A DNA stretch of 64,000 nucleotides from Candidatus Obscuribacterales bacterium (lineage in GTDB: Bacteria > Cyanobacteriota > Vampirovibrionia > Obscuribacterales > Obscuribacteraceae), in the NCBI GenBank assembly GCA_019744775.1, contig JAIETZ010000002.1, positions 124,001 through 188,000 on the forward strand, given 5' to 3'. How positions within the stretch are numbered: position 1 is the first letter of the stretch; every line of letters begins with the position of its first letter. The notes beneath the pieces were generated by a model that had not been told where the DNA came from, did no database searches, and saw only the letters and a program-made list of their open reading frames with translations. The position numbers and the translations under genes are program-made. Shown piece by piece: positions 18,222 to 62,600 of the stretch.

Positions 18222-18739
18222 ACGAACATCTCACCAGCTCAGAAGTAATGATCGCGTGGATCAAATCACCTGGGATAGAAGGTGTTGGTCCCAACGTCAA
18301 AGATGGCAGATGTTACCCGTATGTCTGTCCGGCTGGAAAGAAAACAGTAGGTCACGGTCACGTCATTCGTATTGGTGAAGACTTTAGCCATGGGCTAACA
18401 TTTGCTGAAGCTGATGCGCTGCTAAGAAAAGATCTTAAGGAACGCTTTGAGCCGTTGATTCACAAGTTCGTCAAAGTACCCTTGAATCAACATCAATTTG
18501 ATGCGCTTGTGTCCTTTGTGTTTAACATCGGGCCTGGCGATCCACGCCGTGGAATTCAGGGATTACTTACTAGCACCTTGCTTAGAAAGCTCAATGTGCG
18601 CGATTACAAAGGCGCTGCAGTTGAATTTCCGAAGTGGAATAAAGGCAGAGTCAACGGCGTGTTAACTGTTCTCGGTGGTTTAGTAAAACGCCGTAAGTGG
18701 GAACAACTTCGTTTTCAAAAGCCGGTACAAGAGAAATGA
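18218..18739 (+). CDS. Endolysin, GH24 lysozyme
   Basis: This 173-residue muramidase cleaves the glycan of peptidoglycan at lysis. It has the T4-lysozyme-type catalytic residues, with Glu21 in GIEG, then Cys37 and Thr43 (YVCPAGKKTVGHGHV) in the Glu...Asp/Cys-5-Thr arrangement. The catalytic Asp is a Cys, as in P21-like endolysins. The gap between Glu21 and Cys37 is 15 residues, longer than the usual 8. The C-terminal lobe has 'NQHQFDALVSFVFNIG' and 'LRKLNVRDYKGAAVEFPKWNK', standard for the family. There is no signal peptide, so it needs a holin for release. It overlaps its neighbours by 4 nt on both sides. Confidence 0.9.
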   Translation: MNEHLTSSEVMIAWIKSPGIEGVGPNVKDGRCYPYVCPAGKKTVGHGHVIRIGEDFSHGLTFAEADALLRKDLKERFEPLIHKFVKVPLNQHQFDALVSFVFNIGPGDPRRGIQGLLTSTLLRKLNVRDYKGAAVEFPKWNKGRVNGVLTVLGGLVKRRKWEQLRFQKPVQEK

Positions 18740-19560
18740 AGACCGCTTTGTTGCTTGCCGGATGTGCAGCGCGTGGAGTTATCCAAGCCGGAATGATCCA
18801 AGCGGTATTAGACTCCGGCATTGAATATGACATGCTTTACGGTTCATCTGCCGGCGCTCTGAATGGTGCCTTGCTTCACGCTGGTCAGCTTCAAGACATG
18901 AAGGACTTGTGGCTGAACATCCGGAACAAAGATGTTTACTCTCAGGCTCCCTGGAATGCTGTAAGAGCAAATAAGGGTTGTCTGTATGATTCAACTCCGT
19001 TACTCAAGTTGATTCAACAGAAGATCAATTTCGCGAAGCTCGTAAGCAATCCTAAGCCGTTTATTTTGCACGTAACTGAGATGTATCCTGAATGGAAATC
19101 AATTCACGTAAATGCCACTGAGCCTATAGATGCGCTGGCAAAATTACTATGGGCATCAGCATCACCGCCGGTATTGATGCCGCCTGTTCAGATAGGCACA
19201 GGCACCTTTACGGATGGCGGCTTGACTAACAATTACAGCGTTGTCGATGCAGTAAATGCAGGCGCTGACAGGTTGATCGTTCTGGCTCCAATGGTGCCGG
19301 AGCCAAAACCAATTCGGAATATCATCGACTCAATTGAATTCACGATTTCAATTCAGCTATGGAATCAATTGGAACGTGAATTGAAATTCGTGAATATCTT
19401 GAATAACGTGCCAGGTTACAGAAAGATCGAAGTCATCCTAATTACTGCCGACAAGCCGACGGGTATCGGTATCCTTGATTTTGATATCAAAGATCGGCAG
19501 AAGTGGATTGATTATGGTTATGAGTTGGCGAAGAATAAGCTGCAGGGCTTATGGTCATAA
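18736..19560 (+). CDS. Patatin-like phospholipase in the lysis cassette
   Basis: This 274-residue protein has the full patatin layout: glycine-rich oxyanion loop (LLLAGCAARGVIQAG), nucleophile elbow G36-S-S38-A-G40 (YGSSAGALNG) and catalytic Asp160 in FTDGGLTNN. The oxyanion loop lacks the usual GGG. Patatins hydrolyse acyl chains from phospholipids. It starts at ATG 18736 within the lysozyme stop (ATGA overlap), so both are likely made together. A phospholipase coupled to an endolysin suggests membrane disruption at lysis, in place of spanins, which I do not see; this role is inferred. Confidence 0.82.
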   Translation: MKTALLLAGCAARGVIQAGMIQAVLDSGIEYDMLYGSSAGALNGALLHAGQLQDMKDLWLNIRNKDVYSQAPWNAVRANKGCLYDSTPLLKLIQQKINFAKLVSNPKPFILHVTEMYPEWKSIHVNATEPIDALAKLLWASASPPVLMPPVQIGTGTFTDGGLTNNYSVVDAVNAGADRLIVLAPMVPEPKPIRNIIDSIEFTISIQLWNQLERELKFVNILNNVPGYRKIEVILITADKPTGIGILDFDIKDRQKWIDYGYELAKNKLQGLWS

Positions 19561-19765
19561 ACATTTCAATAACTGGATCTGTTTTATGTGTTGATTGTTC
19601 AAGTAAATGCGGTGGTATTTTGAACAGCGCTTGAATTTCATCAATCATTTTGCGGCGTTCCTTGAAGAACTGTTCATCGTGAAATGTAATAGAAGGCAAT
19701 ACAAGGCAAGTCCAACGATTTTGTTGTCGCAATGCCTTATGGCGATTTCTTTGATGGGTGGTCAT
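19487..19765 (-). CDS. Last early gene, small unknown protein
   Basis: This 92-residue ORF starts at 19765, overlapping the stop of the upstream gene (4 nt), which supports its being translated. It runs 74 nt into the 3' end of the convergent patatin gene. It contains 'KERRKMIDEIQALFKIPPHLLEQST', reminiscent of a helical motif seen in portal-type proteins ('..FGIPPHLLG'), but the rest is unlike a portal. Function unknown. Confidence 0.5.
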   Translation of the reverse strand: MTTHQRNRHKALRQQNRWTCLVLPSITFHDEQFFKERRKMIDEIQALFKIPPHLLEQSTHKTDPVIEMFMTISPAAYSSPTHNHNQSTSADL

Positions 19766-20253
19766 TCTTCTTCCTCAATTGCCTTATTGAATGCACCAGG
19801 TTCAATTCTGTATAAAAATGAACCAAGTTCTTTGAGTTCTTCTCTGTTTCCAACTGGGTCTTTTCCAGAAAATCTTTTAGCGTAATCCTGTTTGCAATCT
19901 TCAGTACAGAATCCACCATCCACCCAATAAAAGTTCCCAATGCTGCCATCTAATGGCGGATCTGCACAATTCTTGCAGGAAAGTTTTCCCTTACGAATGA
20001 TTTCACATATATCATCTGAATCTAAATCATCCCAGTGATCGCTAATGTGTTGTGCGAGTTCAATAAATAGAGCTTTGTAGTCTGGTTGTTCTTTTATTGT
20101 TTGCGGATCTGTCTTAATCAATTGAGCAAGTTCAGCACCACCACCTGCTCCAATATCAAATAATCCGGCAATGAGACTGTCTTGAATTGGCTTACGCTTC
20201 TTCTTACTAAACCGACCTAATAGCCGATTGAAGAAAATATCAAATACTCGCAT
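19762..20253 (-). CDS. Phage protein with possible zinc-binding Cys cluster
   Basis: This 163-residue protein has a basic N-terminus (NRLLGRFSKKKRKPIQ), a helical central region, and two Cys pairs (LSCKNCADPP and FCTEDCKQD) that could bind one zinc in a CxxC/CxxxC arrangement. The CTEDC part resembles the end of a small FCS/zinc-ribbon element. It heads the last two-gene pair of the early operon. Function unknown. Confidence 0.6.
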   Translation of the reverse strand: MRVFDIFFNRLLGRFSKKKRKPIQDSLIAGLFDIGAGGGAELAQLIKTDPQTIKEQPDYKALFIELAQHISDHWDDLDSDDICEIIRKGKLSCKNCADPPLDGSIGNFYWVDGGFCTEDCKQDYAKRFSGKDPVGNREELKELGSFLYRIEPGAFNKAIEEEE

Positions 20254-20277
20254 GATAAGGTTCCTTTAAGTGGGTAA

Positions 20278-20583
20278 TTATTCCAAATTCACGAAGAATT
20301 CCAGATGGGTAATTATTCCAAATCCATAGTTTTCTACAAACTTTCCCAAATCACAACAAAATGATTCTAGCTTCGCTTTTGTTATCTCACCAGTCGGTAT
20401 GATTGTTAACGTCGCAGTTATGTCTTGTTCATTGATGATGGCTAATGGTTTTCTAGTCTTTGATGGTCTACCGCCCTTCTTCCCATTGGCAGCACTAGAA
20501 GCCGCCTTCTTTGTAGAAGTCTTTTTCCCGCCTACGCGCCCGAGTTCTACCGCTGCCTTGTTCTTCTTGACTGACTTTGTCAT
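20278..20583 (-). CDS. Small basic protein with AT-hook-like motif
   Basis: This 101-residue protein has a Lys/Ala-rich N-terminus containing SANGKKGGRPSKTRKP, a GRP core that is typical of AT-hook DNA-binding, then a short alpha/beta region (ATLTIIPTGEITKAKLESF). It is probably nucleic acid binding. I chose ATG 20583 because GAGGT lies about 8 nt upstream; an in-frame ATG at 20601 is less well placed. It follows a structured, operator-like leader (20623-20769). Confidence 0.6.
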   Translation of the reverse strand: MTKSVKKNKAAVELGRVGGKKTSTKKAASSAANGKKGGRPSKTRKPLAIINEQDITATLTIIPTGEITKAKLESFCCDLGKFVENYGFGIITHLEFFVNLE

Positions 20584-20622
20584 GTTATCTACCTCATTCA
20601 ATAGGGTATGATCCTTTTAAAT

Positions 20623-20741
20623 AGTCAGCCGAGGGAAGGTACACTGTGGATAGTTAGGCAGGGCTTGGATTGGAGCGGGGCGGTTTGTTGTCCGCCTTCG
20701 TCCCGAATTGTTTGCACCTGTCCTCCGTCCCTCGACTGACT
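20623..20741 (-). ncRNA. Candidate structured RNA / long leader
   Basis: The two ends of this 119-nt stretch pair over 14 positions: AGTCAG-C-CGAGGGA (20623-20636) with TCCCTCG-A-CTGACT (about 20728-20741). On the - strand the one odd pair becomes U-G, so all 14 pair. Further inside are a CAGG/CCTG helix and a GGCGG/CCGCC hairpin. It is G+C-rich compared with its surroundings, contains no ORF, lies downstream of a candidate promoter and upstream of the gene at 20278-20583. It could be a leader, a free RNA or a DNA cruciform site. Direction is inferred. Confidence 0.45.
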
Positions 20742-20751
20742 CAAATATAAT

Positions 20752-20769
20752 AACCTAAGCGCTTAGGTT
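20752..20769 (-). promoter_or_regulatory. Perfect 18-bp palindrome beside a -10-like box
   Basis: AACCTAAGCGCTTAGGTT is a perfect palindrome without a spacer, the form of an operator for a dimeric regulator. Read on the - strand it is followed at once by TATTATATTTG, which contains TATATT as a candidate -10 box, so a bound protein would cover the promoter. Transcription would enter the structured stretch at 20,741. I see no convincing -35 box. Confidence 0.5.
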
Positions 20770-20799
20770 TTACTAGTTAACTGATTCTGATCTGATGAA

Positions 20800-20835
20800 A
20801 AAGGTACGGAGACTCATTACAACCTCCGTACCTTT
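20800..20835 (-). terminator. Rho-independent terminator of the early operon segment
   Basis: A 12-bp perfect stem, AAAGGTACGGAG with CTCCGTACCTTT (arms 20800-20811 and 20824-20835), has a 12-nt loop. On the - strand the 3' arm runs into CCTTTTTC. It lies 17 nt after the stop of the exported coiled-coil gene at 20852, so it ends the long leftward transcript; genes further left then use their own promoter near 20,750. Confidence 0.8.
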
Positions 20836-20851
20836 CAGCTCCATACCTTGG

Positions 20852-21103
20852 TTACTTATCCGCTTTCTTGCCATGCAAAACAGTAATCTGCTTTTGCATT
20901 CCAGCAACCTTACGCTCAAGTTCTTTGACACGCTCATCTAATTGGCGAGTGTATGCAATAAAGCTATCATTCACATCGCCATCATTTAGAAAGCGTTCGA
21001 TCAATCCAACTCGATCCTCCAATGCCTCCTTAGGTGTATTGCTAGCAAATGCCGGCAGCGAGATTAATGCAAGCAATCCGGCTAGTATCATTTGTTTTTT
21101 CAT
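20852..21103 (-). CDS. Exported coiled-coil protein, paralogue A
   Basis: This 83-residue protein has a signal peptide (MKKQMILAGLLALISLPAFA then SNTP) and a heptad-rich C-terminus (TRQLDERVKELERKVAGMQKQITVLHG) predicted to form a coiled coil. It is related to the protein at 24757-25014: same MKKQ start, same size, same helix register (ELEKRVEALEKK). AAAAGGAG lies just upstream. Small periplasmic coiled-coil proteins in phages can be spanin-like or act in exclusion; neither is proven. Confidence 0.7.
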   Translation of the reverse strand: MKKQMILAGLLALISLPAFASNTPKEALEDRVGLIERFLNDGDVNDSFIAYTRQLDERVKELERKVAGMQKQITVLHGKKADK

Positions 21104-21135: not shown

Positions 21136-21417
21136 TTATCTTCGTGCTGGTGCCTTCGTGATTGGTCCACCCGTTGCAGTTAGTGGCTCCGGTAACGCCG
21201 GCGGCTTTATCTCCGGCGCTCTAGCTCCAACTTCAAGAATTTCAAGTCCAGGCTCGTCGAATGTCCAAGACTCTATGAGTTTGCCATCGGTGCCTAATTT
21301 CTCAGGTTGAATTACTACCCGTCGGCAACCATGTAGCCATACTGTAATTCCGGTGGCTATTCCTTCAAAGCCTGTTACCTTATCGCGTACCCTGTCACCT
21401 AGTTTCACTTCGATCAT
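21136..21417 (-). CDS. Small phage protein with KOW-like N-terminus
   Basis: This 93-residue protein begins MIEVKLGDRVRDKVTGFEGIATGIT, then a 'HGCRRVVIQPEKLGTDGKLIESWTFDEPGLEIL' strand-rich core and a Pro-rich tail. The opening resembles the SH3/KOW-like beta-barrel of a widespread small phage protein of unknown role. I chose ATG 21417, which follows AAAGGAG and overlaps the upstream stop; earlier in-frame starts run through the neighbouring gene. Confidence 0.68.
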   Translation of the reverse strand: MIEVKLGDRVRDKVTGFEGIATGITVWLHGCRRVVIQPEKLGTDGKLIESWTFDEPGLEILEVGARAPEIKPPALPEPLTATGGPITKAPARR

Positions 21418-21608
21418 TTCTTTCTCCTTTGTTTCTTCTTGAATTTCTGCATATCCATTTGAGCGATTAGCTTTCTTCCGAGCATGTCCGGTCCTTGCTT
21501 GCATTCATGCGGGAATTTATCGAAGAAGACGGCACACTTCCGGCAACGATAAACAACTTGGCTATAGCCTTTTGCATTGATCAAAACACTTGATTCTTCC
21601 TTGGTCAT
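21414..21608 (-). CDS. Small Cys-containing phage protein
   Basis: This 64-residue protein has a CRKCAVFF...PHEC pattern (Cys-x2-Cys, His, Cys), fitting a small zinc ribbon, and a strongly basic end (KFKKKQRRKK). It overlaps both neighbours by 4 nt. Probably a nucleic acid-binding accessory protein; unassigned. Confidence 0.6.
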   Translation of the reverse strand: MTKEESSVLINAKGYSQVVYRCRKCAVFFDKFPHECKQGPDMLGRKLIAQMDMQKFKKKQRRKK

Positions 21609-24756: not shown

Positions 24757-25014
24757 TTACTTGGTGGCAGCACCTGAGGCTTTGTTCTCGCGTTGCAACT
24801 TCAAGATGTTGACCGCGTGTGTCATCTTCTTTTCGAGAGCCTCAACACGCTTTTCAAGTTCGTAATTTCTTACTGCCAAAATGCCTATGGCTTTAGCTTG
24901 TTTCTGAGTGATCTCATACAATGCACCGGGTGTTAGAACCGTTGCATTATCTACTGCCATTACTGGCAAAGCAGCCACCATCATTACAGATAGTGCTATT
25001 AGTTGTTTTTTCAT
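24757..25014 (-). CDS. Exported coiled-coil protein, paralogue B
   Basis: This 85-residue protein has a signal peptide (MKKQLIALSVMMVAALPVMA then VDNA) and a coiled coil (AKAIGILAVRNYELEKRVEALEKKMTHAVNILKLQ). It is clearly related in design to the protein at 20852-21103. I chose ATG 25014 after AAAAGGAG; the in-frame extension upstream lacks a ribosome binding site. It would act in the periplasm or at the outer face of the inner membrane. Confidence 0.7.
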   Translation of the reverse strand: MKKQLIALSVMMVAALPVMAVDNATVLTPGALYEITQKQAKAIGILAVRNYELEKRVEALEKKMTHAVNILKLQRENKASGAATK

Positions 25015-25037
25015 TTCGTTCTCCTTTTGTTTATTGA

Positions 25038-25175
25038 TTAGTGAATAGCTACATGCACTTGAAACCAATGAATGAGCCAAGGCAAGTCAAAGCAGAGGAA
25101 TCGCAATAGCGTAAAAGCCGTTAAAACCATTCCAATGATCGCAAAAACAGCGACATCGCCAAAACTTCCGTACAT
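25038..25175 (-). CDS. 45-residue membrane protein
   Basis: ATG 25175 follows AAGGAGAG and opens 45 codons coding for one or two hydrophobic helices (VAVFAIIGMVLTAFTLLRFL; FDLPWLIHWFQVHV). It lies directly upstream of the exported coiled-coil protein B, with which it may form a pair (inner-membrane plus periplasmic partner); this is an inference from adjacency. Confidence 0.55.
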   Translation of the reverse strand: MYGSFGDVAVFAIIGMVLTAFTLLRFLCFDLPWLIHWFQVHVAIH

Positions 25176-34924: not shown

Positions 34925-35155
34925 TTAAGATGCAGAGACTAGCCGCTTGGCTAGTTCATCGAGGTCTATCTTGGCAGCTTGAGCGATTTGGGCTGCTTTC
35001 TCAAGGCTCGGTTGTTTGCCTTCATAGACATAAGAATGGCAAGTCCGGTCTGACAGATTGCTTGCTCGCGCCATTTCGGTTGGATTCATCCAGCCAGCTT
35101 TATCCATGACCCATTGCCAGGCTTTTAATGGTGTTTTGTGTGATATGCCTGCCAT
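34925..35155 (-). CDS. XRE-family (Cro/CI-like) regulator
   Basis: This 76-residue protein is one helix-turn-helix domain: WMNPTEMARASNLSDRTCHSYVYEGKQPSLEKAAQIAQAAKIDLDELAKRL. The 'sdrT...y..G..Ps...a..iA.a' pattern is that of XRE-type DNA-binding domains. It lies next to the repeat array and operator sites, and is probably the Cro- or CI-like switch of the prophage. GGAG precedes the start; it shares one base with the upstream stop. It lacks a cleavage/dimerisation domain, so SOS-type cleavage is not expected. Confidence 0.8.
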   Translation of the reverse strand: MAGISHKTPLKAWQWVMDKAGWMNPTEMARASNLSDRTCHSYVYEGKQPSLEKAAQIAQAAKIDLDELAKRLVSAS

Positions 35156-35543: not shown

Positions 35544-35592
35544 TAGGATATGTCGCCTCAAGATGACCTATATCAAGCGTGTATGTAAGATA

Positions 35593-35675
35593 TGCCGGAG
35601 GTCGGAGTCGAACCGACACGCCCTTTCAGGCGGATGATTTTGAGTCAACTGCGTCTGCCATTTCGCCACTCCGGC
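35593..35675 (-). tRNA. tRNA-Leu (anticodon CAA)
   Basis: The - strand folds as a class II tRNA: acceptor GCCGGAG/CTCCGGC with discriminator A, T arm GTCGG-TTCGACT-CCGAC, variable arm CGCC-TGAAAG-GGCG and anticodon loop CTCAAAA with CAA at 34-36. One anticodon-stem pair is T-T (28-42). CCA is not encoded. The 3' end faces the prophage, the usual orientation when a phage uses the tRNA 3' half as attachment site. Confidence 0.95.
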
Positions 35676-35771
35676 ATCAAATGGGTCTAACATTCTACAC
35701 TGCCGTTGGCATCCAGGGTGGTCTTGGCAGCCGGGCGTTAAGGGATGGTAATCAATTGCTAGAATTGACCC

Positions 35772-39671: not shown

Positions 39672-39683
39672 CGTAGGATTAGT

Positions 39684-39813
39684 GGGGGCGCATGCAATGC
39701 GCCCCTACGCCTTGTTAACTGCGTCTTCGTCTACACGCGCTTGTCCGATCCGTTGTGCGGGCATGCGTATACGTTTCCGAAGTATTGTAGGGGCGCATTG
39801 CATGCGCCCTTAC
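39684..39813. repeat. Inverted pair of REP hairpins
   Basis: GGGCGCATGCAATGCGCCCC followed by TACG (39686-39709) and its reverse complement preceded by GTAG (39787-39813) lie 80 nt apart between two convergent genes. They form a BIME-like unit and may act as transcription end or RNA stabiliser. The orientation is opposite, so the two could also fold together. Confidence 0.82.
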
Positions 39814-50440: not shown

Positions 50441-50447
50441 TCCCAAC

Positions 50448-50625
50448 GGGCGCATGCAATGCGCCCCTACGCAGGACAGAAGAACACCAATTCCCTCTTC
50501 GATCCGTTGATCCAAAACCGGGCGCATGCAATGCGCGTACGCAGGACAGAGCAACACTATACCCATCTTCGATCCGTTGAGACAATAACGGACACTGTTC
50601 TTGTACGTGCATTGCATGCGCCCGA
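50448..50625. repeat. Tandem REP units downstream of RAYT
   Basis: Two REP copies (about 50448-50472 and 50519-50541) are each followed by the same roughly 50-nt flank (GCAGGACAGA..., TCTTCGATCCGTTGA), making a duplicated unit of about 71 bp. A third, inverted and partly decayed copy (GTACGTGCATTGCATGCGCCC) lies at 50603-50623, just after the stop of the giant gene. The second copy has lost two of its C's. Confidence 0.85.
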
Positions 50626-50642
50626 CCGAGGTGGCGGTGCGA

Positions 50643-53600
50643 CTACGGAGCGATCGGCGCGTAGTTGCCGTGGCTCATTTGTGTTTGTTGGACGACAGCG
50701 GCCATCTTCACTAGTTTTTCCAGCAATGCTTTGTCGGAGCCGTCTTTGCTGCTGACGATTCTCTTCAAGACGTCAATTTCTTGCATCAAGGAAACAAGCG
50801 ATACTTCGCAACGGGCGAGGCTGTAGCCATTCGGCAGATCGACAAGTTTGACACGGCGGCGTCCGACGAGGTCAGCCTTCATTGATGCGTTGACTTCGCC
50901 GTTGGCTGGTCCAAGTACTGCTTCTTGACCGGCGGTCAGAGCGAATATCTTGCCGTTGATAACTAAGCGGACTGAATCAGGTGCGTTGTCGTAGAGGACA
51001 CGTACTGTGGTTACATCGCCCTGACGCGTTACCATTGCGACGGTGCCGGATGTTACATAGACATCGCAGTTGCCGGCTTTAACAAGTGTCTGACGATGTG
51101 AGGCAACTACTGCTTCACCATTCTTCAGTGTCATCACACCAGGCTCGTTGAGCGTTAGTCCTGTGCGCGCTGTATGACGTACTTGAGCAGATGCTGCAGA
51201 GAGTGTAAATATGCCGGATGTGGCGATGTTCGGAGTTGGTATTGGCTGAGCAAAACCGATTGGTACAAGCGCTTTGCCATCACCGTTACCGGCAACCGCA
51301 CTACCTGGTTGACCATTGATGACCGGCATGCCAGAACCGACAGTTGCTGTTCTTATACCAGTAGCTGGGATAGACGCCTTCGGCGTTGCATCCATCTTCT
51401 CAAGCTTGGCTCTTGGTGGCTGAGCATTTGGATCCGATGGTGGCAGTGCCGGAGCTTGTGCCAACTCTTCTCTCAAGTCATCGATTCTCTTACGAACAAT
51501 TACAGAGAAGCAACCAGTGTTGCAAGACAACAGCAACTCACCAGCAGCAGCAGAACGACGATCAAATAATTGCTTGCGAGCATTCTGACCAGGTCCAACC
51601 ATAATTGTTCCACCAACCGGCTGTCTGTCGATGCCATCAACTGGAATGAGTTCTTCCTCAGCCAATGCATTGTCGGCAATGACCAACTCTTCGCCAGGAC
51701 CAGCAACTAAAGTATGTGTTTGACCGGCATTGGTTACAGCAACATCTGTATCACTGCCGGATAAGCAGGCTACGCGCAATAATCCTTTTGGTTTCTTCTC
51801 AACCATAGTAGCTGATTTAGCCGGAACAGTAATACGACCCTGACTTGTTTCAATGATCAAATCTTGTGTGCCGGATATTGTGATGAGTTTGCCTTCTCTA
51901 AGCAAGATTGTGCGTCCAACTCCTGGAGCAAGTGTCGTGCCGCCGCTGCTTATCACGGCAGTGCCGTCATCTTTCTCGAAGGAGAAGGCTTCGCATGAGC
52001 CATTTGCCATGAGCCAATTGGTTTGCTCGGGATCTTCAGGTGTGCCGAAGTTGGCTGAATTCAATTGGGTCGGTACGCATGGTTTGGTTTGCGCAGTGTT
52101 GAATACCTGATCGATGTCCTGCACAACGTCCTTCGATGTCAATGAATTGGTTGCATTATTTGGATTGATTGTGACGCTAAGCTCAGTGTCTCCACCAATA
52201 CCGCCACCGCCGCCGCCTGTACCACCACCGCCTGGTGTTGGTGGTGTCGGAGGTATCGGTCCACCACTCAATGGAGGAGCTACAGCCAATACAGCCATGT
52301 TGTTCAATACAATCGGTCCGACTGGGTCAATGGCGATGACGCCACCGTTGGCGACCAAAGTTGTTGTGCCGTTAACAGAGATTGAACCCTTCGTTCCGGA
52401 GTCAAACATAATCGTGCCGCTTTCCGGAGTGGTAATGCTTGAAGTTCCTGAGACGTTTACTGTACCGGCGTATGTTGTCTGACCACCGGTAATACGGTTA
52501 AGTTGCGTCGTATTTAGATAAGAACTTAGACCGCCGGCTGGTGATGGTCCGTTCCATATAGCAACACCGCCACCCTGGTAAGCTCCTACTGTCTGTCCAT
52601 CAATTATCACCGTGCCGCCGCCGTTGATATAGCGAGCGACTGATGTGACCGAAGCTCCGGTGTTGCCGGTCATGGTGCCATCAACTGCCCAGACAATGAC
52701 GTTAGCTGCTTGAGCGAAGAGCGAAGTCGAATCACCGAGAACAATATCCTCAGCCGATGTGATATTGATGTTGTTGCCAACACTGAGCATGCTGACAGAA
52801 GTGCCGTTCGGTGAAGAAACATCAGATGTGGCACCGGTTGTCGTAATATTTATTGCACCGTTATATTGAATAGCGGCAGTGTTGTAATCACCGAATGCAT
52901 TCATACTAGTGCTACGTGGATCAAATCCGGCAGATATTGTGCCGGCACTTATGTTAGTCGCTCCCGTCGTACCAAATCTTGCGTTACCCAAAGATGTGAT
53001 GTTTACATCCAAGCTGGCAGTGACGTTACCTTGTTGAACATGAGCTTCGCCACCCGTGGCAGCGAAAGTCAGAATTCCGTTTAGTGGTTGGACATAGCCG
53101 ACAGCGGTCGTATTGATTAACGCGCGCGTATCACGAATTCTCAAATCACCACCAGTAGTGGAAACACTGACAAAGCTACTTGCTGTGGTTGTGCCTGTCG
53201 GCGTTGTGACTGCACCGATGATTTCGCCGCCTGTCGATGTTATACCGAAGAGGACGTTAGAAATAGTCACGGTATTGGTGCCGCCAACTAGTCCTGCCTG
53301 GATGACACTGTTGTTGGTGATATTAAAGTCTTTCTGATTGCTTGTATAAGTTAGGTCAGCACTCTTCGTGGATGTGATGCTTACATTTGTTGCTGCTTGC
53401 ATGCCGTTAAATAGAGTCGGCATGATGGCGTTGGTGCCATTGTTGACATAGAAGTCACCGTGAGTGGTTAAGTCAATGAAGCCTGTTGAAGCAACCAAAT
53501 TCTGAGCTCCATAACCGGTCAGCAATCCGGTCATGTTATTGGCAGATACAGCAGTGATGTTTGTGGCAACACCGGATAATGCACCGTAGAGGATATTGTT

Positions 53601-56600
53601 GTACAAGCTAGCTGTTCCACCGTCAGCGACAAACTGGACAAGACCTGTCGTTTCAATATTGCCGTTGTTGTTACCGGCAGTATTGACGCTTAGTGTGCCA
53701 CCATTGCTCAAGAAGGTAATTGTACCTGTGTTGGCTGCGCCCAAGGCAACCAAGTCACCAGTATTGGTTACGGACAAGCCGACGTTAGCGCCACTGCCTG
53801 ACAGTAATGGAATGATATTGTCGTCATCTGTTGCATTCAAGCCAAGTACAACGGCGTTGTCGATGATGTATTGCTGCGTCTCCGTTCCCATACGAGCAAA
53901 GATGATGTTGCCACCCGTTGCATTGGTGTTGCCGTCGTTTGTTGTTATCGCATGTGGATTAGTTGCGTTATCAAAGGTGGCAGCGTTTGTAAACAGATTG
54001 ATTTGACCACCTGTAGCTCCAGTTGCTCCAGCTAATGCTGTTATGTCTTGTTGAATATCAATTGGGCTTACAGATGAGCCGGACAATAGTGTGATGACGC
54101 CACCGTTACCGTTGCCATCACCATTAGCTTCCAGACTGCCTACAAAGGATGTGCCGCTGAGGTTGCCGACTACCAACACTTCTTCCGTTGCGATGCCGAC
54201 TATACTACCGCCGTTACCGTCGCCTTCGCCATTGGCAGCAAGAGCGCCATTTACTTGAATGCCGGTACCTTGGATGTAGATCTTACCGCCGTTGCCGCTA
54301 CCGGATGTGACAGAGACATCAATGGCGTCAGCTTGTCTGACGTATGTGGGTCCCTGCAAGTTAATTAGCGTGATGCTGCCACCGTCACCTCTGCCGAGTA
54401 GGTTAGCGCCGCCTGAAGCGGTGAGCAATGATCCTGTCGTGCCTGATTCGTTCCAGACACCATTGAATGAACCATCAATGGATGGCGGTGTAAGAATGTC
54501 ACGATCAATTGTTAACGGTGTGGTTGTCTTGGTGATGATTGTGATTGAACCACCATTACCGTTTGGTGCGCTCACGCTCAGTTTGTCATTTGGAATCCAG
54601 ACGCCGCCAGGAGCGTTAACTGTAATCGAACCGCCATTAGCGTCAGGCAAGCCGGTAATGATGTTATTGCCGGCAACCGGTCCGCCTTCTGCACGCAACG
54701 TACCGTTGACGTAGCTAGATCCGCTAGCCTGACCGATTACTAGAGTCTGTTGCGTATCGAATGTAAGCAAGGTGATGGAGCCACCACTGCCGGAACCGAC
54801 ACCGGAGACATCCATAACTGGAATTCCGCCAATTAACGGTAGTCCGTCTATTTGTAGAACGGTGCCGCCTAATGTGAGGTTGCCGCCATGGTGGTCTGCT
54901 ACGGTGCCGTCGTAAGTAAATCTGACGGCATTGGCAAAGTCAGTAATTTGTAGAGGACCATTTTGGTTGATGAGTGTTATTGTGCCGCCGCCACCTGCAC
55001 CGCCGACAGCGATGAATCCGGCAATGTAGTTATTACCACAAGCCGGTCCGCCACCACAGCCGACAATTAAGGCATTGCGTGAGTTGGTGATTACATTTAC
55101 TTGACCTGCTTCACCACCAGCCATTGTGCTGTTGGCTTGCAGGGTACCGTAATTGACACCGAGAATCACCTGACCGAGATTGTCGTTGATGATATTGCCA
55201 CCGGAATTAATTGTGATTGCACCACCGTTTGGTCCGTTGACAGTGACGATCCAATCGAAATTCAAGACTGCAATTGCCGGCACGGTAATGAATACGTTAC
55301 CGCCGGAATCATTGGCGACATCCAAGCTTGCTGATGTAGCGTCAACTGTCAAAGCTGCTTGTTGCATCAAGTCTCCACCTGTGAGAACAAGATTGATGTT
55401 GCCGCCGGAAGCGCCGTTGCTGCTGGCAACAATATTGCCGCCGTTAAGCTCCAGTCCGCCGTTGCGCAGCTGACCGACAAAGACATTGATGTTGCCGGCA
55501 TTGCCGAAGAAGCTGGATGCATCGAGGCTCGCTCCACCGGCGTTTGGATTCAAGGCAATGCGTCCAACTCCTGCCAACAAATTGATGTCGCCGGAGCCAC
55601 CACCGCCTGCGTTGAAGCCACGGTTACCGGAAAGAATGGCACCGGACATTTCAATGTCCTGACCGGTTGCAACAGTGACATTGCCGTTAAGTCCGCCGCC
55701 GAATGAGCGAATTGAATTACCGCCGAATGTATCGCTCGATGTAGCACTGACGCTAATGCTACCGGCTGTTGCAACAAGATTTACATTGCCTCCGTTTGAT
55801 TGTGAGGAACCTGTATTGGCACTGCTATCGATGTAACCGTCGACAGTAATTCCGCCTGCTGGTGAAACAACGAAGATGCTGTTGCCTTGACCTTGTGAAT
55901 CAGTAAAGTTGGTCGAGCCGGATGCTGATGTGTTGGTTGTGGCAAAGCTTGTTACCAGGTTGCCTGTTAAGTGAATTCCTTGTGCGGCACCCAGAACAAC
56001 CGGAGCTGCCGTATCGGCATTGGCTAAGTAATCCATCGACATCAATTGACCAATGGCATTAACAGCAGTCAGTTCACCGGTAAGGGCAACAATTGGCGCC
56101 AGCATATGGAAGTTGCCGTCTGTGTTGACCGTGATGCTGCCATTTGTAGTAGCCAGATCAAGTGAATCAAAACCACCAGCTGCCAGGTTGCTGCTGACAC
56201 CTGTTAACGAAATGGTAAATGTCTGGTCACCAGTCAATACGAGATGCGCATCTTCGCCTACTCCCAACGGATTGGCATTTTGGAACCATTGAACAAGTGT
56301 ATGTCCGTCTGGATTGTATACATGCTGAGTGATGTCATCCATGTAATTAACAGCACCGGCTATTACATTGCCGTTGGTGAGAATTACAACCGCACCGGCT
56401 GCTTCATCTCTTGTTTGTTGGTTCGCAATGTTGGCGTTGTCGGTTACAGGCAGACCGGTTACTAGATTGACTCCGCGTGTGCTGGAGATAAATACATCGC
56501 CACCAAAGCCGTCTGTTAATACATTTGGTGTGGCACTTATAAACGGATTGCTGGAAGTATTGCTCGTGGTGATAGTGCCTTCAACATTTATATAGCCAGG

Positions 56601-59600
56601 AGCGCTTATGGCAACCGAGCCGCCTTTGGCTGTCGAGCCGGAAGCAGTTGTGTTTATAGACTGGATTTGCATAATTCCTGGCTCTTTGGGCAGGCTCAAG
56701 GCAAGTGCCGGATCCATATTGATCATGACGACGTTACCACCGCCTGTGGCACCTGATGTATTGATATTGCCGATGAGCATGGCGTATCCGTCATCTCCGG
56801 ATGTCACATTGCTCATTACGACATCGCCGCCGGCGCCATTTGCGCTTGACGTATTGACGTTGAAGTCACCATCGTTTTGTGCGCGAATGGTTGTTATTGC
56901 GCTAACAAATACGCGTCCACCACCTGCTGGACCTGAAGCATTAATTCCAGGATTGCTCGAGCCGACACGACCTATTTCAACTGCATTTTGTGAGTTGCCC
57001 GCAACAACAAGACCGCCTTTGGCACCGACCGTATCGAGAAGTCCGAAGTTACCACTGACATTGATGTCACCTGTTACAAACTGATCACCGGCTGCCGTCA
57101 ACATGACGTTACCGCCGTAGTTACCTTCGCCTGTACCGTAAGCGACTATGTCGTTTGGAATATTGAAGCTGCCCTTCAGGGTGGAGATAATTACCAATCC
57201 GCCGTTACCACCAGTGGAAGAAGCGTCAATTGCAGCAAAGGCATTAGCTGCTAGTTGCGAATAGCTGCTGTCGACATATGGGCTGTCGATAACTAGCGAT
57301 GTAACACCAAATGTGTTGGCATAGACAGAAACAATGCCGGCTCTTAGATTTTGGCTGCGGCTATTGAGTGATTCTGCCGTGACTGAACCACTCGAACCAA
57401 TTACAATTGAACCGCCAAATGCGTTATCCAGACCACTGGCATCAATATGTCCAATGTTGCTTGTTGTAGCAGCACCGGCAGCATTAAGAATAAAGACGCC
57501 GCCGATATTCAACTGGTTACTGGTCTGACCATAGCCTATAAGATTAGCGCTGCCCATATCCAGTGAACCATTACCAAGTTGAATCGTGATGTGACCACCA
57601 TTGGTACCACCGGATACATTGATATTGTGTGGATCAGTTACGTTGAAGTTGATGTCTTCAGTACCAATGCCGATGTCATTGCCGGATATCATCAGCGTGC
57701 CGCCACGACCTTGCTGCGAGGACAAGTCAATTGCCGTCTCATTGTCTGACAAGGTACCGACAACATTGACGCGACGACCGGACAAGGTGGCTGTGCCGCC
57801 CAGTCCAGCTGTTGTGTTAGCCGAGATGCTTGATACTGTGACTATGCCCAATGGCGCTCTTAGTTCGATGTCACCGCCTGGTTGAGAGACGGTACCATTA
57901 GCTGCCAATGTTGTAGCCGTTAGATTGGTAGCCATAGCTATTGCTACAAACGATCCGCCGCCGTTATTGCTGGCTAGACCAGATACATCGACAGCGCCAC
58001 CAATGTTCACAGCGCCACCTAGCAATTGGACGGTGCCACCGTGCGAGCCTGGTTGCGCACGAGTTGTGCTCAGTATGTCGCCGCCGACGCTCAATGTTCC
58101 GAAGTTGAACATGTAAATTGGCGCGCCGTTAGCGATTAGCGATGATGTGGTGCTGCCCGTGCAACTTGGGAAGCAGTTGGTTACATCATTGGTAACGCTT
58201 ACATTGTCGGCACTCAAGATTGCTACAGCAGAAGTGCCGTTGCCGGTAACTGAGTTAGCGCTGACAGAGCGTGGTGTAACAAGCGGTGCCAAGAAGCTTG
58301 ATGTCGGTCCGACAAATGTCAGATCGTTGAAGGCAATGGTTGTTGGGAAATCAACCAACGGACCAGCCGGCATGCCGTAGGTCATGCTCGATGTTGAATC
58401 AAGAATGTATGGTTGAGCACTCGGTGTAACAGCAAATGTGTAATTGTGGCTCGAGTTGAGAACAGTAGCGTTAAACATTCCATTGACGCTGTTGTTGGAG
58501 TTGTAGATATTGTTCTCGACGAGATTCGGGAAGAGTCCGACATTTGGACCGGTGACAAAGTTGGAGACAACCGTGGCGCCACCTAAAGTGACGTTGTAAT
58601 AGATATCGCCGTTGGACATTACAACTTCGGTACCCATCGAGCCTAAAGTACCACCGGATACATTGATACCGCTGACACCGTCAATTGCTGTGCCTGGGAG
58701 AATGAGAGGAGCATTCGAGCCGACGGAGATGTAGACGCCGCCACCGACACCGTTGCTGGCAGTGCCGTTAGCGGTAATATTGCCGGCAATTGTTGCCTGA
58801 CCTGGCGTGGAGATGACAACCGAGCCGCCGAATGACGGAGCGGAAACATCGAGACTGCCGGAAATAGTCACTGTGGTGTTATCAATTGTGAGTGATGCGC
58901 CACTGCCGCTTACGGTGATATCAGCAGTCGGATTAAATGTAGCGAGCCAGATGGTGCCACCGACACCGACGTTCAAGGCAGAGACTGCATTTGCACCAAT
59001 TGCTCCTTCAACATCGATACCGTTCTTGGCTAGAACCATAACGTTGCCGCCATTGTTATAACCACTGGCGACTATGTCGGCGTTGATGCTGACTTTATCT
59101 TCAATAGATTCAATAACAATTTGACCGCCTCTTTCCAGACCATAGGCATTTAAGACTGTGTCCGATCCGCCGTTGATTGTTACAGCACCACCGGCCTTGA
59201 GATAAATTTGACCACCGTTGAATAGAGTGCCGTGCGCATCGATACCGACATCACAGCCGACACAGCTTTCTTCTATCGTCAAGTTACGAGTAGCGCTCAT
59301 GTAGACGCTGCCGCCGCTATAGCCTTGATCGTTGAATAGCCAGTTTGTTTCTATACTGCCCTGAACACTTATTTGCACTACACCAGGTGTGCCCTTGTCT
59401 GAAGATGTGTCGATTGTTGCCGGCGACAAACTATTGCTACCGAATGTGCCGAGATAACCTTTGTGCACGCCAATTGTCAGATTACCGGCAGCGCCAACTG
59501 TGGAGCTTGTGTCAACAAGTGCAGTTGGTGAGTCAGTAAGGATTAGACCAGCTGAGGATTGATAGGCAACGCTACCGGACAAGAGTGATTGCTGAATGAG

Positions 59601-62600
59601 CAATGTGAAGTTACCGCCACCGGCTGCCGCACCGGATGTATCAATTCCAGGAACAATCAAGTTGCCTATTCCGATGTTTACGGTCAGATTGCCACCTGTC
59701 GTATTGGCTGATGTATCGATTATGTTATCGAACATAACGTCGCTGCCGGCAAGAATTTCTACGTTGCCGCCAAGCACAGCTGCGCTTGTTATTAGATTCG
59801 AGGCATGCACTGTTCCATTCGGTGCAATTATCGTCACGTCACCACCGATTGTGGTACCGCCGGCACGAATGCCTGCTGAACCGGCAACAACACCGGAGCC
59901 GTCCAAGTCTATGGAAGAACCGGCTTGAATATTGATGTCGCCACCGACATTACCTTCGGTGAATATTGCCCACGGTGTGAGCGCAGCGCCGCCGGTGTAG
60001 ATATTTACCGTGCCGCCTGTTTGAGCGCCGGTTGTTAGTTGCGTGCCATTTGTAGTGCCTGAATCATTCATGATATTCAGTCCGCCTGGTGGCACTAGTC
60101 CGAAGCTGCCCTGCGTGCCGGCTAGAACTGAAATGTTGATTGTACCGCCGTTGGATACTTGCGAACCGGCGTTGATGCTATTTTCCGGTGGAGGGATAGA
60201 GAAGACTGTGTTGTTGGTAGCAACAAGTCCTGTGTACAAGCCGGCACCGGACAAGCCTATAAGGATATTGACGACACCACCTGTACCGGCAGCGCCAGTA
60301 GCGTCGATGTAACGGCTATATGTTCCTTCCGGACTATTCAATGTGATATTGCCGGAAGCGGTTACCAAGTTAACTTCACCGGCATTTACTGGTGAGCTGA
60401 CATTGATTTGACCATTGACGGCTATACCGGCTCCCGTTGTGACATTAACAATGCCGCCATTCAATCCACCGGTGGAAGTAAGATCACCAACTGTGGCAGA
60501 AGCGAACGGAGCAAAGGTATTAATGATGCCTCCGTATTGTGTACCGGATACATCAACACTGCCGGTATTAACTTGACCTAGCGCTGAAACAAATGTCACG
60601 GTGCCGCCGACGCCAGTGCCGGTATTGGTCACATCACCAGTTACATTCATAGTATCCAGCGATACCAATGTAATGTTGCCGGCACTACCTGAGGCAACTG
60701 TCAAATCACTAAGGATGTCAAATCCGGTTTGGGAAAGAACTGGAACTATCGCACGACTATTGCCACCGTTATCAATTGTCACTGTGTTGCCCGCACCGGA
60801 AGGTGTGCTGAATGAGAGATATCCAGCTGGATTGTAATTGTCCAGCGTCGATGGCGTAACGGTAATTGTTATGCCACCGGTGACATTGGTAGGTACATTG
60901 TAGACAACCGATGATGGGTTCACATCGGAGAAGACACCAAGTTGTCCGGCGGCTACGCTATTGGTACCGCTTTGATTGATGTCTTGACCGGCGACTAAAA
61001 TAATTTGTCCAACTTGAGCGCTGCCTGATTGAGCAAGTGCATTGACATTGGTAAGTGTCAGATCATTGCCGCTGGACAAGAATACTGTTCCTGCAGCCGC
61101 TTGATTGCCGGCTCCGGCATTGCTGTTGCCGACATTTACATTACCCCCTAGTGTGACATTGCCCAGACCGGCAACTGCCACTGCGGCACCCAGACCTTGC
61201 GTGCCGGAAGCAACACCATTGATGCTGACACCGGCTGTCGCACCAATTGTTAGTGATCCAAAGCTGGCATCCATACTGTAGACCTGTACGGTGCCACCAC
61301 CTTGACCGCTTACATTGATGGAGCCTATACCGATGGAGACTCCAGTACCTAAATTGCTGCCGCCTGATACAACCATTACGTCAGCGCCGGAACCGTTAAG
61401 TGATGTTCCTGTTAATCCATATGATGATGTGATGGCACCAGCCGATGAAGCAAATATTGAACCGGCATTAGCCGTTCCTGAAACATCGATGCCAAAGACA
61501 TTGTTCTGGAGCGTACCTGTTGCATTGCCGTACGACAATGCTTGCTTGCCGCTGACATCAACGAATCCACCAGTTGCTCCACTTGTGCCTGTTGCATCAA
61601 TGTTGCCTACAGTGACACTGTTGCTTGGTGAATAAAGAATTACTTTACCTGCGTTGTTGCCGGTGCCGGATGCATAAGCTTCAATATTGCCGGCATTTAT
61701 GGCGCCTGTACCCTGAGTGACCATGAGTACAGTTCCGGCATCATTGCTTTGCGCGCCGACTGTTATATTACCGGTGGCGGTAATTTGTCCAGTGACTGCT
61801 TGCATAGCTACATTGCCGCCCTTTGCTTCGCTTGTGCCGGCAGCTAAGATGTCGTTGTTGCCGACATTGATATTGTTCCAGGCTTGTAATGAAACGGTAC
61901 CTGCTTGATTGCCATTACCCAAGCCGCCTACATTTACATCATCACCCAGCGTGATGGAACCAACTAGAGCCTTGGCGTTCAAATAGCCACCGGAGCCGTG
62001 TGCGGATGAGGCATTGCCACTCAAATTGATTGCACCAGTCACGGTGATGTCACCAAAATAGCTGAACAGATTGACATTGCCGCCATCGGCATTTTGCGTG
62101 CCGCTAGCATTGATGCTGCCGCCGACAGTGATGTTGTCCTGAGCAAAGATGTTGACATAACCGCCGGTGAAGTCAGTGCCGTTGCCTTGAGCGGCAATCG
62201 AGCCAAGGTTTACTGAACCGGCTGTTGAGTTAATTAGTACCAATCCGCCAACTGCGAGCAGCGAACCACTGGCATTCAGTGCCCCTGTTACTGTGACGTC
62301 ACCTACGGCATTGATGGCGATATTACCGCCTGGTGCATTTGGTCCAGTTGAAGATGTATCGACAGATGTCAGACTGACACCACCCAATGTGTTGATGCCG
62401 ACATTACCGGCAGCAGCACCAGCTGAGCCCGTGGCAATCAGGTCTTCACCGACGACACTGCCTTGAGCGGCGATACCTATATTTCCGGCAAAACCAACTG
62501 GTCCGGTTCCGGAGGAATCAAGATCTTCATTGAGGGTGATTGCGCCCAATGGGTTAGCCAAGACTATTGAGCCGCCTTTGCCTACTGGAGAGCTGGTATC

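Follow-up and report, generated by a model that had tools for sequence, protein, structure and literature searches.

What does the prophage carry at positions 20623–20741 of the window? The window, by which we mean the whole 64,000-nt stretch of DNA analysed, is part of a 4.1 Mb host genome, and these 119 nt had been read from the letters alone as a candidate structured RNA of the prophage. A structured RNA from the minus strand is indeed the best reading, and it is most likely the 5′ domain of an mRNA that codes for protein, rather than an RNA standing alone. We consider it likely, with good confidence, that the element is the 5′ leader of a prophage mRNA, and it is probably functional. Positions 1–35500 look like a prophage, as judged by matches to tail, endolysin, D5-type primase, and Holliday-junction resolvase proteins, and a tRNA-Leu gene (35592–35676) lies just beyond. 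Late prophage genes occupy the plus strand as far as 19560 and early genes the minus strand from the other side down to 19762, which places the element close to the far end of the block on the minus strand. By our reading, a small putative HTH protein is encoded at 34925–35155. A patatin-like phospholipase gene (18697–19560) is located directly behind the phage lysozyme gene. The host part of the window includes a very long ORF (50643–63986, 4447 aa) and long palindromic repeats (39682–39813 and 50447–50627; GTAGGGGCGCATTGCATGCGCCC and related sequences), which may represent a dispersed repeat of the MITE type.

The predicted fold of the minus strand is a three-way junction closed by a 14-pair helix, which we designate P1. 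Minus-strand positions 1–14 (the 5′ arm, 20741–20728) pair unbroken with positions 106–119 (the 3′ arm, 20636–20623), and the lone irregular pair, a U-G, is the 7th, as the sequence-only reading had described; on the plus strand, a C/A mismatch takes its place. The nested inner helices that had been claimed are also present in this fold: P2 (20656–20724) is an interrupted helix with a GGCGG/CCGCC apical stem, and P3 (20643–20654) is a small hairpin. In the full leader, the computed pair probability of P1 is 0.81–1.0. The minus strand folds with an MFE of −51.1 (z −5.48), which none of 200 shuffles reached, and the plus strand with −52.5 (z −3.42), which 1 of 200 shuffles reached. A plus-strand RNA was rejected for this weaker z, for the C/A mismatch in P1, and for the absence of a promoter box pointing that way. 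On these predictions, we take the minus-strand structure to be real.

How unusual the element is depends on the measure that is used. It is GC-rich, as had been noted, with 58% GC compared with 44.7% for positions 1–35500, where 0.04% of 119-nt segments equal it. None of the 3540 119-nt segments from both strands of this region equals its absolute stability; after GC correction, it stands at only −2.8 SD and is exceeded by at least 15 segments, which partly overlap. Helices of 14 pairs with at most 1 G-U and a span of 80–250 nt occur once on the minus strand of positions 1–35500 and never on the plus strand, and at least 1 such helix occurs in 17% of 150 first-order Markov copies of the prophage. 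Therefore, the helix found by scanning alone is not extraordinary, and the shape by itself is suggestive, not conclusive. The Markov frequency also speaks for a chance or DNA-level origin, in which the 5′ arm would be conserved just as promoter or operator DNA and the 3′ arm would be fortuitous or a further site for protein binding, or in which the whole would be an inserted MITE-like piece. What argues against this origin is the position of the helix: a 14-nt complement to the fixed segment at the predicted transcription start is expected within 250 nt with a frequency of only ~6e-6 by arithmetic (~9 allowed strings/4^14 × 170 positions). AAAT stands beside both ends of the element, one base off, a possible target-site duplication. 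The element is single-copy in the genome, and its end sequences recur at chance level (20 sites versus 24 in the reversed control). On these last two grounds, a MITE or other insertion element was rejected, and we regard the chance or DNA-level origin as a whole as unlikely.

The predicted start to which the helix is anchored follows from the promoter-like box and palindrome that had been reported ahead of the element, both of which we found upstream on the minus strand (TAGTAA-AACCTAAGCGCTTAGGT-TATTAT). The box consists of (i) a −35-like hexamer TAGTAA (20770–20775, 3/6), (ii) the palindromic 17-bp spacer AACCTAAGCGCTTAGGT (20753–20769), a probable operator, and (iii) a −10 hexamer TATTAT (20747–20752, 5/6) that ends 5 bases ahead of P1. 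From this spacing, transcription is predicted to start at 20741/20740 on the minus strand, where P1 begins. A consensus promoter scan listed no minus-strand promoter here. Behind the upstream gene (20852–21103), we read a terminator-like hairpin with a T-run (20797–20835, minus strand), the 12-nt loop of which exceeds the limit of the terminator scan.

Downstream of the element on the same strand is a gene (20278–20583, ATG at 20583) for a protein of 101 aa, which includes an N-terminal part with the motif NGKKGGRP (KGG) and a C-terminal part. The gene is led by the Shine-Dalgarno sequence GAGG (20592–20595), P1 closes 39 nt before its ATG, and there is no terminator between. The locus thus has what a structured 5′ leader calls for, namely a promoter on the same strand with its predicted start at the element, the −35 being poor, and a Shine-Dalgarno-led gene behind it. 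The KGG protein had no Pfam or PHROG match at E 0.001; its KGG part was matched in 4 genomes besides its own among 50 genomes of the host family, and searches of viral contigs and phage records detected no relative of its C-terminal half. At the gene's 3′ end lie 2 copies of a 21-bp direct repeat that are 95% identical (20271–20326).

The association of the box with KGG genes extends to other phages. In a blastn comparison of the element with 117 loci, the box recurred before KGG-family genes, whereas the element did not. A canonical form, TTGACA-AACCYAANCGNTTRGGT-TATAAT, could be read from the upstream regions of these genes. The box AACCYAANCGNTTRGGTTATWAT was found in 9 viral stretches, 6 of which have a KGG motif within 1.2 kb downstream (2 of the 9, L154 and L157, are identical in sequence, and L153 ends after 167 nt). 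When 1 mismatch was allowed, 4 of 99 genomes related to the host yielded 5 sites, 3 of them with KGG, and the window counts among the sites. At up to 5 mismatches and up to 500 nt upstream, 14 of 57 distinct KGG contexts have the box, compared with 3.2% of 1140 random segments. Promoter scoring of the box sites detected a −35 in 15 of 47 and a −10 in 14 of 47, counts that are biased upward because the orientation of each site was picked by the better promoter score. Among 14 listed box sites, the first ORF starts 6–40 nt after the −10 in 12, and a long structured leader follows the box in the window only. In phages that otherwise differ, KGG-protein genes come with a class of promoter whose 17-bp spacer is palindromic, and the frequent order is promoter, small ORF, KGG gene (loci L017–L087, L122–L123, and L151–L161). 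Elsewhere in the host genome, the box occurs only once (G000:C4:167670-167697; L002 and L162), where it is followed on its minus strand by an ORF that we take, by likeness, to be the N-terminus of an integrase.

A second conserved segment lies at the predicted start itself. The octamer GTCAGTCG (20733–20740, minus strand; element positions 2–9, within the P1 5′ arm) matches the conserved sequence GTCRGYCR at a distance of 29 nt from the beginning of the box. The chance of such a match at the right distance in the window is ~4e-4 by arithmetic (8/65536 × 3). In 105 viral loci (884 kb), we found 80 distinct AACCYRAKCG sites, which are followed by GTCRGYCR 11 times at distances of 10–109 nt, and 10 of the 11 fall at 28–30 nt from this half-site (among them L023 3018, L046 4194, L056 1415, L059 778, L060 1001 and 5193, L061 1671, L067 1629, and L075 2006). 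These matches come from 8 loci, some near-identical (L056 and L067), and 6 of the 8 seem to belong to a single phage group, so that their independence is limited. A search of 50 whole viral records for both pieces together gave 9 matches, all of them sites already known or copies of these, and 0 in the reversed control. Among 289 relatives of the host, AACCYRAKCG-N18-20-GTCRGYCR was found once in this prophage and 3 times elsewhere, versus 3 times in the reversed control; a host-wide signature was rejected, since the matches outside this prophage are at chance level. In the phages, the fixed-distance GTCRGYCR sits around the predicted +1. In the promoters of L056, L059, L060, L061, L067, and L075, it is conserved without a hairpin, which is what the DNA-level origin of the 5′ arm would lead one to expect.

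In L023–L025 and L046, which represent 2 phage types, the same spot is occupied by AGTCAGC-CGAY-GCTGAC(T), a perfect hairpin of 6–7 bp. This short hairpin resembles the window in its related box, its position, and its outer arm sequence, the 3′ arm GCTGAC(T) being common to both. It differs in having a 4-nt loop, compared with ~100 nt between the arms in the window, and in being followed by ORFs of 46–82 aa, with the KGG gene hundreds of bases further on. From the shared arm sequence and position, we infer that the element may represent the short +1 hairpin in enlarged form.

The same helix could also close a free-standing small RNA, that is, a discrete RNA of ~119 nt transcribed from the box, cut or terminated after 20623, and acting in trans or bound to protein. 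P1 joins both ends of such an RNA, and its 5′ end fits the predicted start. The sequence behind P1 (ATTTAAAAGG) provides no terminator after 20623, the Shine-Dalgarno-led KGG gene begins 39 nt downstream, and the element has no Rfam relative, all of which make a free RNA improbable. An intrinsic terminator formed by P1 was rejected, as ATTTAAAAGG has no U-tract and the terminator scan listed none.

For the preferred reading, a 5′ leader of the KGG mRNA, we propose that P1 shields the 5′ end of the mRNA and keeps the 3′ arm off the KGG start, a mechanism for which we hold the chances to be evenly balanced. RNA polymerase would start at 20741/20740 on the minus strand, at a rate set by a protein bound to the palindrome, and the first 14 nt would pair with 20636–20623 as soon as the latter are made. 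The closed domain would deprive decay enzymes of the single-stranded 5′ end on which they depend; we propose this protection from what is generally known of mRNA decay in bacteria (passages of PMC7509114). It would also keep the 3′ arm away from codons 3–5 of the KGG gene (AGTCAGTC, 20569–20576, minus strand), with the ribosome site left open. If the 5′ arm were cut off or bound, the 3′ arm would pair with the start region and close the ribosome site. In computed folds, the 3′ arm pairs with AGTCAGTC when the 5′ arm is removed, and opening the ribosome site costs 6.6 kcal/mol with the leader, 14.1 kcal/mol without the 5′ arm, and 6.5 kcal/mol without the element. In the controls, a change of this size was also obtained for 2 of 64 gene starts elsewhere and for 14 of 200 starts with shuffled codons, and the energy of pairing between the 3′ arm and the start region is reached by 5.5% of random segments. 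The switch is statistically weak.

The description of the element as gene-free was partly right. A 43-codon ORF on the plus strand (20608–20739) and a 30-codon ORF on the minus strand (GTG at 20717, stop at 20625 inside the P1 3′ arm) cover it, and the absence of a gene is not to be taken for granted because the latter ORF is preceded by a Shine-Dalgarno sequence and small ORFs occur in relatives. The element could mainly be the coding sequence of a 30-aa leader peptide that replaces the small ORF found elsewhere between box and KGG gene, in which case translation would matter rather than the fold, or both would form an attenuation-type switch. The ORF has a start codon and a possible Shine-Dalgarno sequence, as a leader peptide would, with GGAGG (20722–20726) four bases ahead of the GTG and 30 open codons. 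A Shine-Dalgarno-led ORF of at least 28 codons was found in only 1.4% of 4000 resampled elements, a rarity that favours the coding alternative. The wider box-to-KGG gaps of other phages hold a small ORF, and of 10 box-to-KGG intervals that we inspected, 8 have a small ORF whose end coincides with the KGG start or falls no more than ~20 nt from it. By contrast, the 30-codon ORF ends 41 nt before the KGG start with no overlap, starts with GTG, and has its Shine-Dalgarno sequence and start paired in the predicted fold; the element is without relatives in all searches, and a coding role leaves the 14-pair helix at +1 unexplained. We give the coding alternative a small chance. A combined leader-peptide switch is possible.

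The statement that no known RNA family has this form held, since Rfam covariance models match nothing in the element at the gathering threshold. An Rfam 15 scan of the whole window yielded a single tRNA, and a scan of the element at E up to 10 gave 2 matches, both well short of the threshold (E 3.4 and 8.4). Membership in Rfam families (6S, pRNA, c4, riboswitches, and ribozymes) was rejected because no score reached the gathering threshold. Whole-element searches detected no relative in (i) phage and plasmid records; (ii) 146 related genomes, with 9 weak matches outside the element's own genome, 6 of which, together with 2 weak matches in its own genome, were inspected and are seemingly unrelated and mostly coding sequence; (iii) 289 class genomes searched with a single-sequence covariance model; (iv) 382 class genomes by DNA comparison; and (v) 22 related loci, nor was one detected with 2 viral patterns. 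The covariance model R1 was built from 2 identical rows and is weak. Neighbouring genes were also used as bait: the gene at 19762–20253 and the C-terminal half of the KGG protein matched nothing, the gene at 20852–21103 gave partial matches only, that at 21136–21504 recovered other phages, and the primase recovered distant prophages from which the element is absent. The look-alike in other phages is limited to the outer 6–7 pairs of P1. The element is new as sequence and ordinary in kind.

6S RNA and phi29-type packaging RNA are about 120–180 nt long and closed by a terminal helix, a closure similar to that of the element, and both were absent from its Rfam matches at E up to 10. Stem-loops in the 5′ UTR can stabilise bacterial mRNAs, as in E. 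coli ompA. Other examples are Acinetobacter recA and Helicobacter vacA (passages of PMC7509114). Like these, the element is a paired structure in the 5′ UTR of a Shine-Dalgarno-led gene; the stem-loops described in these passages are simple, whereas the element is a 119-nt three-way-junction domain closed by its own first 14 nt. Its helix would begin at the 5′ end itself, and a stabilising role may be proposed by analogy. The c4 antisense RNA, manA, and wcaG are structured RNA families borne by phages, and such domains are placed upstream of genes (passages of PMC2864571). They are likewise structured RNAs in phage genomes, and these families are founded on covariation (passages of PMC2864571); none of the 3 matched the element at E up to 10. 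Open-licence PubMed Central papers yielded nothing on the promoter signature, the role of the KGG/KGGRP protein, or such a prophage leader.

If the leader reading is true, the element would count as a cis-acting RNA candidate from a prophage whose host belongs to a poorly studied lineage, and it is tied through its 5′ arm to a bipartite promoter signature of KGG-protein genes in several kinds of phage; this signature is a handle for finding further such leaders. A bolder proposal, which we think quite doubtful, is a new class of phage leader switch, set in promoters that lie near KGG-protein genes and combine the palindromic spacer with the conserved GTCRGYCR at +1, in which the first transcribed bases would be both a promoter element and an arm of a 5′-terminal helix. 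In this prophage, the hairpin would have grown to a 119-nt domain with a 3′ arm that pairs either with the 5′ end, turning the gene on, or with the KGG start codons, turning it off. Ribosomes translating the 30-codon ORF, or else the basic KGG protein, would read the switch. Among the neighbouring genes, the proteins of 20852–21103 and 24757–25080 resemble each other by eye (signal peptide and coiled coil), and the last 30 residues of the former are 80% identical to a protein in relative G032, the remainder being different.
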